A DNA stretch of 62,285 bases, taken from contig JAGMCR010000008.1 of NCBI GenBank assembly GCA_023129115.1, forward strand, positions 1-62,285. Direction: 5' to 3'. Positions 26,440 through 29,067 of this stretch are shown here, in pieces. The position numbers and the translations under genes are program-made. This DNA comes from Candidatus Iainarchaeum sp. Its GTDB lineage: Archaea > B1Sed10-29 > WALL01. The notes beneath the pieces were generated by a model. It made no database searches, was not told the DNA's origin, and worked only from the letters and a program-made list of their open reading frames with translations. Position 1 is the first letter of the stretch, and every line of letters starts with the position of its first letter.

Positions 26440-27090
26440 TCACTTCTTTTGTATGATGAGTTCCCAGGGATAGCGCTTTTGCATACCAAAAACTTTTTTG
26501 TCGCCTTTGCTGCCTTCACCATACCTCTTCATTAAATAATCAAAGTTTTTGAAAAACCTGTCCAGGATCCCCTCGTCGCAGACGTAATGGGGCTCTTCAG
26601 ATTCTGGGCCATGGATGCCCACGTAAACATTGGGGGCGATTTCCCTGCCTTCACTTATTTTTGGGTCCTTGTGTGAAATCATTGTCGCCACCAGTATGCC
26701 TTTTGGCTTCAGCACGCGTTCTATCTCTGAAATTGTTTTTTCGATATCCGCGTGGAGGCCGTGGAGTATAACCCCAACACTCACCACAGCGTCAAAGGAG
26801 CTGTCCGGGTAAACCAGGGAACGCATGTCACCCGCGTCTATCCGTGCCTCCAGCCCAGTTTTTTCAAGGAGCGCTTTAGTTCTCTTGACCGCTTCTTCAG
26901 AGATGTCAACCCCAGTCACGTCGAATCCCTGCTGTGCAAGGAATACGGTGTGCCTTCCAGCGCCACAGCCGTGGTCGAGGACAGTTCTCACGTTATGCTT
27001 TTTCAACACCGGAATGGAGTCCACAACAAGCTTTCTTGGCTCGGTCATTCCCAACTGGTATTTCTTGATAAACTCGTCCCAGCCACTCAC
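26440..27090 (-). CDS. class I SAM-dependent methyltransferase
   Basis: 216-aa methyltransferase. Motif I VLDHGCGAGRHTVFLA (about residues 37-52), acidic motif II VTGVDIS, GDMRSL and motif IV SFDAVVSVGVILHGL. It is similar to small-molecule or UbiE-like methyltransferases; the substrate is unknown. Its start overlaps the RNase HII stop by 4 nt, and it is followed after 4 nt by the Ldh2-family gene. Confidence 0.85.
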   Translation of the reverse strand: MSGWDEFIKKYQLGMTEPRKLVVDSIPVLKKHNVRTVLDHGCGAGRHTVFLAQQGFDVTGVDISEEAVKRTKALLEKTGLEARIDAGDMRSLVYPDSSFDAVVSVGVILHGLHADIEKTISEIERVLKPKGILVATMISHKDPKISEGREIAPNVYVGIHGPESEEPHYVCDEGILDRFFKNFDYLMKRYGEGSKGDKKVFGMQKRYPWELIIQKK

Positions 27091-27714
27091 TCAAACTCAC
27101 CAAGCCTCGCCTGCAGCTTCTCCTCTTCCATCCGCTTGCTCGTGTCCCACGACTTCCGCGCGAACGGCGGGAGCTTGCCGTGCTCCTCGAAATAACTCTT
27201 CAAAAACTCTTTTGTCACCGGGTCCGCGGGGTAGCCACTCCCAATCTCGCCGTACTTGGCCCGTGTTTTCTTGACCCACTCGTCCCGCGCGACCTTCGCA
27301 ATAATCGACGCAGCGGAAACAATCGGGTAGTTCACGTCGGCCTTGTGCTCAGCGATTGCGTCAAAATCCGGCCCCAAGTACTTCCGCAGCCGCTGGATGA
27401 ACCTCGTTGGCTCGGTGTCGGGACAGTCGATAATGATTTTGTCCGGCTTTTCCTTCAGCCCCATAATCAGCTCGGCGATTTTCTTGGCCTCGACCTCGTT
27501 GAGCGACATGACTTTCCGCATTGAGTCAATCTCGTGCGCAGAAATCTCTATCACGGCGATTTCCTTTGCAGCGTTGCGTATTTTTGCAGCCAGTTCTTCC
27601 CTGCGCGCCGGCGTGAGCAGCTTCGAGTCCTTGCACCCCATCTCGCGGTAGCTGACGCTAGACTTCTCTGTGTCTACTACTCCGGCAATAACCATCGGGC
27701 CGAAAACGGGGCCT
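27087..27714 (-). CDS. rnhB: ribonuclease HII, main (third) exon
   Basis: RNase HII cleaves the RNA strand of RNA-DNA hybrids. This exon encodes GPVFGPMVIAGVV, the KDSKLLT motif and the catalytic Asp segments to the end. The essential N-terminus is missing here. It is found upstream as a mini-exon (about 27767-27783, reading DEAG) and a leaderless first exon at 29021-29035 (ATG; MLVLG), separated by introns of 52 nt and about 1.24 kb. Joined, the product reads MLVLG-x-DEAGRGPVFGPMVIAG and is about 219 aa, normal length. A start at the internal ATG 27695 would lack the first catalytic Asp-Glu. Confidence 0.85.
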
Positions 27715-27766
27715 TTAGGAGGGGCATAAATCCTTCATCGATTTGATGATAGGTGTCTATACCCCA
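27715..27766 (-). other. 52-nt bulge-helix-bulge intron in rnhB
   Basis: Reverse-strand elements: inner helix GGGGTATA/TATGCCCC (8 bp), 4-bp central helix GGGA/TCCT (one G-U), 3-nt bulges AG|T and AA|A. Cutting after the second bulge base on each side, the rule also obeyed by the tRNA-Ala intron here, removes 27715-27766. The join AG+A makes an Arg codon and gives the canonical DEAGRGP. Unspliced, the frame reaches a stop two codons after DEAGSG. The outer helix is weak, so this would be a relaxed motif. Confidence 0.75.
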
Positions 27767-27789
27767 CTTCCCGCCTCGTCACAGCCCAA
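27767..27789 (-). CDS. rnhB: rnhB mini-exon encoding the DEAG active-site motif
   Basis: Between the two introns only about 17-23 nt of coding sequence remain, reading (LG)CDEAG plus the first two bases of the Arg codon. It carries the first catalytic acidic pair of RNase HII. The left boundary is uncertain by a few bases because the large-intron splice site is not fixed. A TTG at 27789 could in principle start translation here, but the nearest TATA-like sequence is too close for the spacing used elsewhere. Confidence 0.6.
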
Positions 27790-29020
27790 TATTAGAGTAT
27801 TTTTATTTTTTTGTTTGTCTCCACTTTTTTCCATAATAGTCCTTCTTTCTTGACTAACCCTAATTTTTCAAGCTCTTTGAGCCTTAGTTTCGTTGTCTTG
27901 AACGCTCTATTTAACTCTTTTGCCACTTCAAACGTCCTCCTGGGCGTATCCAACGTGTCTAGAATACTCTTTTTGAGCTGAGAGATTATGATGGTATTAG
28001 AATCCATTCGAATCCAGTAAGATAAACTGCCGGATTGGTAGTTCATTATTTTCCCTTCTTTTTTCAATTCAATCAAGACGTCTTGTATCCGGGCGAAGCT
28101 CCGCTTGTACTTCTTCGAGAGAGCCCGCGCGGTCGTGGGCCCTTTCAAGTCCTTGTAGGCTTGCGTCTTCAGATAGTTGGCGCTGTAGTGCTCTTCTTTC
28201 ACTGTGCTCATCATTTCTTTGAACTTCTCGCGCTTGTCTTTGTGCAGAAGGGTCAAGCCAATCCGGTCAACAGTCCTTAAGTTGTTCAGCCCGAAAATGC
28301 TGTACATCCTGTTGCTTGGCGTGAACCTGTAGCTCAATCCGAAGTAGTCAAGCATCCTCTCAATTAAGGGGTTGGGAATGCCTTGCGATATCCTGACGGA
28401 ACGGCGGTGATGGTGCTTGAGTGAGTAGTGGATGTTACCTTCTCCAGCGAAGAATCCTTGTAGGATGTATCCATAATACTCTTCTTTTCCGCAAAAGTCC
28501 CTCACTGTTTCTTTCCATTCTTTTGCCAGTTTGGTTTTCGCCAACCTGAACAGAAGATAAGGTTTCCTTGCCCTATTGTCAATATAGCGCCTTATCCGCA
28601 CATTTTTTAGGTTTGGTGTTACTTCTTCTGCATCTTCTTTTGAATAGATGTAAACTCTCGCGTTAAATTCTTCGTCCTTGTAGTGCTCTTGGATTGTGTT
28701 CCCGAAAAACTCAACTAACTCAATACAGTTGTTTGTGAAAGTAATCTCACGAATTGTCTTGTTATCGCCTTCGGCTAGCCAGAGGCCTACACATTGTGCT
28801 ATTCGCTGGTCGGTTGGCACAGAACCCTCTTCCCCGAATACCTTTGCTGCGCTGGCGCTTAAATACTTTTTCATGGGCCAAACCTTCTTTGAAATTTTTA
28901 CGGGGGCGATTTTAGCTGTTCGAGTCTTAGGATTTTCGTCCGCGAGCGAAAATTCATAAGAACGAGCAACGGCGGGAGAACCCGTAAAAATTGGGGGGGT
29001 TTGGCTTCAAGGTGTTAAAA
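27784..29020 (-). mobile_element. about 1.24-kb homing intron in rnhB
   Basis: This interrupts rnhB between the codons for MLVLG and DEAG. Ends are approximate. It contains a LAGLIDADG endonuclease gene and, upstream of it, a large folded region: AATTTTTACGGG/CCCGTAAAAATT (28893-28904 with 28981-28992) and CCAAACC/GGTTTGG (28878-28884 with 28998-29004), enclosing further hairpins including ATTTTCG/CGAAAAT. An archaeal endonuclease-processed intron is more likely than group I, because only about 165 nt lie outside the ORF. Confidence 0.65.
27792..28874 (-). CDS. LAGLIDADG homing endonuclease in the rnhB intron
   Basis: 360-aa protein with two LAGLIDADG-type helices, CVGLWLAEGDN (residues 28-38) and YILQGFFAGEGN (136-147), so a monomeric two-domain enzyme is likely. 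The acidic residues at the ends of both motifs are Glu rather than Asp. The C-terminal third contains two winged-helix-like segments (TTARALSKKYKRSFARIQDVL and RRTFEVAKELNRAFKTTKLR) that could add DNA specificity. It is AT-richer than its neighbours, as expected for a mobile gene. It presumably cleaves intronless rnhB alleles. Confidence 0.85.
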   Translation of the reverse strand: MKKYLSASAAKVFGEEGSVPTDQRIAQCVGLWLAEGDNKTIREITFTNNCIELVEFFGNTIQEHYKDEEFNARVYIYSKEDAEEVTPNLKNVRIRRYIDNRARKPYLLFRLAKTKLAKEWKETVRDFCGKEEYYGYILQGFFAGEGNIHYSLKHHHRRSVRISQGIPNPLIERMLDYFGLSYRFTPSNRMYSIFGLNNLRTVDRIGLTLLHKDKREKFKEMMSTVKEEHYSANYLKTQAYKDLKGPTTARALSKKYKRSFARIQDVLIELKKEGKIMNYQSGSLSYWIRMDSNTIIISQLKKSILDTLDTPRRTFEVAKELNRAFKTTKLRLKELEKLGLVKKEGLLWKKVETNKKIKIL

Positions 29021-29035
29021 GCCGAGAACAAGCAT
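29021..29035 (-). CDS. rnhB: rnhB first exon (MLVLG)
   Basis: ATG at 29035 is exactly 27 nt from the centre of the symmetric TATA box at 29057-29067, so a leaderless transcript starts at this codon. It encodes MLVLG, which aligns with the beginning of archaeal RNase HII (M-x-x-x-G-x-DEAG). The frame hits a stop two codons later (TTT TAA), so it is meaningful only if spliced to the DEAG mini-exon. Exon end uncertain by a few bases. Confidence 0.6.
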
Positions 29036-29056: not shown

Positions 29057-29067
29057 GCTTTATAAAC
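29057..29067. promoter_or_regulatory. symmetric TATA box shared by rnhB and rpl35ae
   Basis: GCTTTATAAAC is nearly palindromic. To the left it is 27 nt from the rnhB ATG (29035). To the right it predicts transcription near 29089, giving a 19-nt leader with GGTGATT before the L35Ae ATG at 29108. Confidence 0.6.

Follow-up and report, generated by a model that had tools for sequence, protein, structure and literature searches.

A predicted bulge-helix-bulge intron in archaeal rnhB and a LAGLIDADG endonuclease gene next to it

Why does rnhB, the gene for the DNA-repair enzyme ribonuclease HII (RNase HII), seem to lack its beginning in Candidatus Iainarchaeum sp.? The window studied here is the whole of a 62,285-nt stretch, contig JAGMCR010000008.1 of assembly GCA_023129115.1. 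A first-pass annotation of this DNA called the rnhB open reading frame (ORF; 27087-27695, minus strand) truncated at its N-terminus, which the sequence confirms, and explained the loss by two introns: one of about 1.24 kb holding a LAGLIDADG endonuclease, and a second of 52 nt. This ORF, the longest listed for rnhB, begins past the 52-nt insertion. That insertion is very likely an archaeal bulge-helix-bulge (BHB) intron, with splicing predicted from its sequence. The LAGLIDADG gene is probably an upstream cistron that lies outside any intron. We put at roughly three in four the probability that a BHB intron in rnhB is paired with a homing endonuclease gene directly upstream of it, outside any intron, in an arrangement that spreads both together. 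The anatomy of the locus, a conserved intron site, a covarying BHB and an endonuclease family linked to rnhB are all observed here.

Read 5′ to 3′ on the minus strand, the locus runs from TTTATAAA through an MLVLGF start, a hairpin stretch, the LAGLIDADG ORF and the TLILGCDEAG codons to the 52-nt insert and the remaining rnhB, down to 27087. Its features are as follows, a slash marking an interruption here and below.

29059..29066, minus strand: TATA-like box read from the sequence, the putative old rnhB promoter, kept in the intronless congener G001 and now ahead of the endonuclease-rnhB pair.
29015..29035, minus strand: ATG CTT GTT CTC GGC TTT TAA (MLVLGF, stop), the apparent displaced ancestral rnhB start, from comparison with G001 and a parallel in L079.
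28893..29003, minus strand: hairpin-forming stretch, leader of the endonuclease gene (fold z = -3.6 for 28860-29035), with partial repeats elsewhere in the genome.
27792..28874, minus strand: LAGLIDADG endonuclease gene, 360 aa, with two motifs and two C-terminal winged-helix domains; a predicted homing endonuclease, probably outside any intron.
28820, minus strand: GTG, possible later start of the endonuclease.
27767..27834, minus strand: rnhB exon 1 from an in-frame ATG, overlapping the endonuclease 3′ end; the same ATG offset (-40) occurs in 7 of 31 related loci.
27786, minus strand: TTG, alternative rnhB start.
27715..27766, minus strand: predicted 52-nt BHB intron within the Arg codon of DEAGRGP (AG/A), from fold and covariation.
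27087..27714, minus strand: rnhB exon 2, the rest of RNase HII, matching PF01351 from profile position 8 and 79% identical to the intronless congener.

The insert at 27766-27715 folds as a BHB (z = -4.8, with 0 of 200 shuffles equally stable). It has a 3-4-3 motif with a left bulge of 3 nt and 4 central pairs; the right bulge can be read as 3 nt with a 1-pair outer helix or as 4 nt with a 3-pair outer helix. In the splice register AG/U...AA/AG, the predicted cuts fall after AG (27767) and before AGG (27714), which gives DEAGRGPVFGPM and restores the Arg of DEAGRGP. The same codon, here called site A, is interrupted in 68 loci read on distinct contigs (44 + 24). The 44 are what remains of 55 candidates without L090 and L117 (no product) and L089, L092, L096 and L114 (spurious product), all six intronless, and without L069, L070, L071, L076 and L077, which are interrupted at another site. 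Predicted splicing places Arg at the conserved position in all 44 loci, and in each of them unspliced read-through meets a stop or leaves the frame.

Pairing across these loci follows the same register. When the best junction was taken for each locus, all four central pairs formed in 42/44 loci, against a shuffle maximum of 15. Because that choice favors pairing, the register was then fixed, and the central helix was still fully paired in 37/44 loci (shuffle mean 8.5, maximum 17). Sliding the register by 1-3 nt left full central pairing in only 0-2 of the 44. The inner four pairs formed in 34/44 loci, compared with a shuffle mean of 6.8 and a maximum of 16. Among single-sequence folds, that of L041 stands out (z -2.8). 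An alignment of 37 introns (the 44 loci without L057, L060, L066, L075, L079, L104 and L113) gave a covariation score, by pair counting, of 0.846 versus 0.215 for shuffled alignments, with 0 of 500 shuffles equal. The corresponding values were 0.885 and 0.193 for 34 loci found with a covariance model, a set that partly overlaps the first (shared members are the window and several contigs) and whose alignment is fitted to the model. The count of pairs changed on both sides, one of five measures, did not exceed shuffles in either set. Fold, restored DEAGRGP, recurrence at one codon and covariation thus bear out the annotation's view of the 52-nt insertion as an intron.

The intron is not confined to this genome. 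In 6 of 97 genomes matched (G000, G002, G007, G008, G055 and G084), and in 4 of the 18 matched among the 19 genomes of the window's phylum, the match to PF01351 begins late, at profile position 8 or 9; reading these loci and others revealed a short insert at the same codon. At least 18 genes with a site-A insert occur in the phylum of G084, where 139/156 genomes have an rnhB match and the loci were read in part. Five or more genomes of one family in that phylum (L069, L070, L071, L076, L077) carry BHB-like inserts of 17-22 nt at a second rnhB site, DE/AGR. The covariance model, built from the 37 introns, was used to scan the phylum of G055 and an archaeal sample. Matches of intron length were found in at least 28 of 371 genomes of that phylum, with 276 matching the model at all, and in at least 21 of 394 genomes of the sample, with 246 matching at all; the other listed matches looked at in the G055 phylum were 44 nt long and corresponded to an uninterrupted gene. 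Intron-length matches extend to genomes of 1.9-3.5 Mb (G627, G660, G771, G782 and G844). L150, L151 and L152 (in G660, G627 and G782), which belong to one family with genomes of 2.9-3.5 Mb, have the same intron without a recognizable endonuclease.

The codons at the site differ between occupied and empty alleles. Arg is encoded by AGR in 44/44 intron alleles, while 53 distinct intronless sites comprise 29 AGR, 18 CGN and 6 Lys (p 1e-6, uncorrected for kinship). Asp-Asp replaces Asp-Glu at 3 of the 53 intronless sites, those of the endonuclease-bearing L089, L096 and L117; because three intron alleles share Asp-Asp, this replacement may reflect lineage. A separate peculiarity was noticed in G243:C11, G248:C7 and G249:C23 (L081), where RNase HII matches stop at profile position 163 in open frames of 708-710 aa, either a fusion or an intein.

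The endonuclease gene keeps close company with rnhB. One scan of genome contigs, with four family members as queries, returned 31 relatives in records named Pacearchaeota, Woesearchaeota, Aenigmatarchaeota, Nanoarchaeota, Nanohalarchaeota, Thermoplasmata, Thaumarchaeota or just archaeon. All 31 lie immediately upstream of rnhB, and 25 of these loci have the site-A intron. Strong matches (E <= 1e-24) occur in 15 of the 371 genomes of the G055 phylum, a number that rises to 18 at E <= 1e-10. The intron stands beside the endonuclease in 12 of the 15, versus an intron in at least 16 of the other 356 genomes (p = 1e-12; the genomes are non-independent). G613 and G603, whose site matches were given without a length, were counted as intronless in these statistics.

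The two genes are also joined in their reading frames. An rnhB start overlaps the stop of the endonuclease in 16/31 loci, the two sharing an NTGA. The rnhB frame of the window is opened by an ATG of its own at 27834, which lies within the 3′ end of the endonuclease gene, 40 nt ahead of that gene's stop (MEKSGDKQKNKNTLILGCDEAG). An ATG at this -40 offset recurs in L089, L091, L094, L098, L102, L111 and L117; L102 has no other in-frame ATG, GTG or TTG. Because a conserved Trp codon of the endonuclease shares bases with this ATG, finding the ATG again in other loci does not independently prove that it serves as a start. In three loci (L104, L112 and L113) the endonuclease frame enters the rnhB exon in frame and stops within the intron, so that splicing would yield an mRNA for an endonuclease-RNase HII fusion, and an unspliced mRNA would give the endonuclease alone.

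The annotation had placed a two-motif LAGLIDADG ORF between the start piece and the DEAG codons, and it is there (27792-28874, 360 aa). An alignment of 25 family members was made from the window and 24 of the 31 endonuclease loci, leaving out L109 and L113-L118. The Pfam family LAGLIDADG_3 matches 23 of the 25 at E <= 0.01, and the window's own protein at 0.058. A sequence-only search of the Protein Data Bank returned weak LAGLIDADG matches (I-SmaMI, E about 0.25), and the structure was therefore predicted. The model, with a predicted local distance difference test (pLDDT) score of 90.5, has a double LAGLIDADG fold, followed by two winged-helix domains on its C-terminal side. Its structural matches are headed by WhiA (3hyi, E 3e-7), then E-DreI, I-DmoI and I-Tsp061I. 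Confidence is low for residues 1-17 (pLDDT < 50), so the GTG at 28820 may be the start. The acid that ends each motif is kept in 25/25 members for motif 1 and 24/25 for motif 2; the intronless L090 has lost one, with Lys in motif 2, and the match in L114, also intronless, spans residues 3-287 only. A look for viral carriers gave 67 stretches with the pattern in viral contigs, none related to the endonuclease. Elsewhere, L063:187-579 (minus strand) holds a 130-aa ORF that faces away from the endonuclease gene and has, by eye, a single LAGLIDADG-like motif (GFIDGEGTI).

Ahead of this gene lies its hairpin leader, with partial copies at L053:1501-1589 and L054:1501-1554 (78% and 82% identity). 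In the L053 copy the structure appears by eye to be kept through paired changes, and it is perhaps a small repeat element or a structured RNA.

The annotation's two-intron reading holds that the 1.24-kb endonuclease stretch is spliced out as well, joining a leaderless MLVLG to CDEAG, and we regard it as quite improbable. MLVLG does lie at leaderless distance from the TATA box and would be in frame with CDEAG if joined: the sequence is present at 29035-29021, with TTTATAAA at 29066-29059. Six junctions keep MLVLG-CDEAG, but five show only 0-3 of the 4 central BHB pairs. The sixth (CT/C...TT/GGGC) has a nominal helix of 4 central, 2 inner and 3 outer pairs and ranks ninth, tied, among 2240 register pairs. 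A scan of five of the six junctions with relaxed bulges gave one match, against a background in which 239/2240 pairs also match. The annotation had proposed a covariance search of 29020-27784 for BHB and group I introns; no group I or II intron reached the Rfam gathering score within the window. The 1.24-kb stretch is thus not supported, over the registers scanned and at that score, as a BHB or group I/II intron. The supposed DEAG mini-exon does have codons that end at 27767, but its frame is open upstream to the ATG at 27834, so no separate mini-exon and no further upstream exon are needed; this frame also brings its own L-x-L-G copy before CDEAG. In relatives with overlapping or fused frames (16/31 and 3/31), the endonuclease meets rnhB directly and leaves no room for such an intron. 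The annotation's suggestion to look for an intronless rnhB in related genomes led to G001, of the same genus, which can be aligned to the window from the promoter as far as (M)LVLG. Since this intronless gene has the same promoter and start, MLVLG is read as ancestral. In L079 (G192), a remnant of an endonuclease has its N-terminus fused to the start ATGAAAAAAGTTCTTGGCATAGATGAG, and the start is repeated ahead of the intron (1018-1044 and 1258 onward). MLVLG at 29035 is thus best read not as an exon but as the displaced old rnhB start, left ahead of an inserted endonuclease gene. The cassette may have entered near its target with a rough join on the left and a homology join on the right.

Three other explanations were weighed. 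In phage T4 gene 60, ribosomes bypass 50 nt, and this gap is linked to a homing endonuclease in the MobA cassette. That case resembles ours in its short insert and neighboring endonuclease and differs in that the T4 insert is skipped by the ribosome. Skipping of the rnhB insert, a short hairpin with early stop codons next to an endonuclease gene, is nevertheless highly improbable. The Arg codon is split, so whole-codon skipping would give Ser or Asn where loci read AGT, AGC or AAT (for example the window, L068 and L102), while splicing gives Arg in 44/44; the pairing lies exactly in the BHB register, and matching take-off and landing codons were not seen in an unscripted inspection by eye. It is also unlikely that the LAGLIDADG protein has lost cleavage and become a WhiA-like regulator of its own operon. 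WhiA (DUF199) is its top structural match; in WhiA a helical domain that binds DNA comes after the LAGLIDADG fold, and in the rnhB-linked protein two winged-helix domains do. The catalytic acids of the LAGLIDADG motifs are lost in WhiA, whereas both are kept in 24/25 members of the rnhB-linked family, whose patchy presence (the 18/371 genomes above) goes with the intron. Finally, a decaying rnhB or an assembly artefact is hardly credible. The annotation named a second intact rnhB, with decay of this copy, as what would refute its reading. PF01351 matched one gene and no second in the 1.25-Mb assembly; at 88.6% completeness the assembly could lack another copy, but the gene body here is intact and resembles that of G001, and the same interruption with a covarying motif recurs in the 68 loci.

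Several observations weigh against a BHB intron and a homing endonuclease that spread together. The single folds of L039 and L107 are little above shuffles (z -1.3 and -1.2, with 22 and 28 of 200 equally stable). Six of the 31 endonuclease loci are without the intron (L089, L090, L092, L096, L114 and L117). Conversely, 44 of 59 loci checked had no recognizable endonuclease at E <= 1e-3, and the intron therefore often stands alone. The structure most similar to the endonuclease model is that of a regulator, WhiA. Last, identity in the endonuclease is weakly correlated with identity in rnhB (rho 0.30, 300 pairs, p 8e-8); vertical inheritance may therefore account for part of the history, and there is room for transfer as well as descent. 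Upstream of rnhB in G007 (L038), a possible endonuclease remnant was seen by eye; it gave no match at E <= 1e-3 and was not counted.

With a BHB intron and an upstream homing endonuclease, the locus could work as follows. The tRNA-splicing endonuclease likely cuts the 52-nt intron from the RNA, and RtcB would seal the exons. The genome has one gene for a splicing endonuclease (PF01974) and an RtcB ligase (PF01139). The RtcB gene has a peculiarity of its own: two matching pieces about 1.5 kb apart within one 994-aa open frame (G000:C4:41556-44339; L121, L122), possibly an intein. On the DNA, the LAGLIDADG endonuclease would cut the intronless DEAGRG codons of rnhB, and repair from an occupied allele would copy the intron; co-conversion across a few dozen bases would carry the upstream endonuclease gene along. 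The intron would split the target and so protect its carrier, while splicing would keep RNase HII whole. The endonuclease gene would borrow the old rnhB promoter, and rnhB may be translated from a new start within or beside the endonuclease stop.

Archaeal BHB introns of the I-DmoI type, in ribosomal RNA (rRNA) genes, contain their endonuclease gene, whereas at rnhB it lies outside the intron and ahead of the host gene. The two are alike in that a conserved site holds a BHB intron with a linked LAGLIDADG endonuclease, as far as the accessible text on the rRNA introns describes them (PMC6125680); all 39 archaeal group I introns given there are in rRNA genes. In mRNA, the excerpted 2020 account names cbf5 as the one additional BHB intron reported to date (PMC7714728), and this crenarchaeal intron is described as 16-44 bp, too short for an endonuclease gene (PMC2738675). 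Like the rnhB intron, it is short, lies in a protein gene and is patchy among related genomes; it differs in gene and lineages, and the available portions of these two papers describe no linked endonuclease (PMC2738675, PMC7714728). The closest parallel in arrangement comes from T-even phages, for which collaborative and trans homing, and endonuclease genes that borrow upstream promoters, are outlined in the sections available of one paper (PMC2988022). Going by those sections, the likeness is that the intron encodes no endonuclease, that a free-standing one nearby is aimed at the conserved gene which holds the intron, and that promoters are borrowed and starts and stops overlap; the phage systems have group I introns and other nuclease families, unlike the protein-spliced archaeal intron and LAGLIDADG protein here. 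As in a collaborative pair, the rnhB endonuclease gene is outside the intron yet linked to it (31/31 before rnhB, 25/31 with the intron). BHB mRNA introns are thus known, but the searchable literature yielded none with rnhB as host gene, with this spread or with an escorting endonuclease outside the intron; the search, with preprints and most subscription papers outside it, found no report of introns in RNase HII genes.

We think it somewhat probable that these loci represent a split archaeal mobile element, in which a protein-spliced mRNA intron of 17-52 nt is served by a LAGLIDADG-winged-helix endonuclease encoded outside it and translationally coupled, or even fused, to the host gene. Such an element would have spread through rnhB genes of DPANN archaea and of some archaea with larger genomes, and rnhB would then be a hot spot for mRNA introns. 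On the evidence presented, rnhB is a second gene with predicted BHB mRNA introns, in dozens of genomes of several lineages and at its most conserved codons, a second site lying a few codons off, and reading frames interrupted in this way are easily overlooked. The linked endonuclease suggests a route by which archaeal mRNA introns are gained. With it, collaborative homing, where an intron and an endonuclease start out as neighbors, would have a counterpart in archaea. If true, this shows an intron that moves without carrying its own gene, and that both marks and protects the occupied allele.

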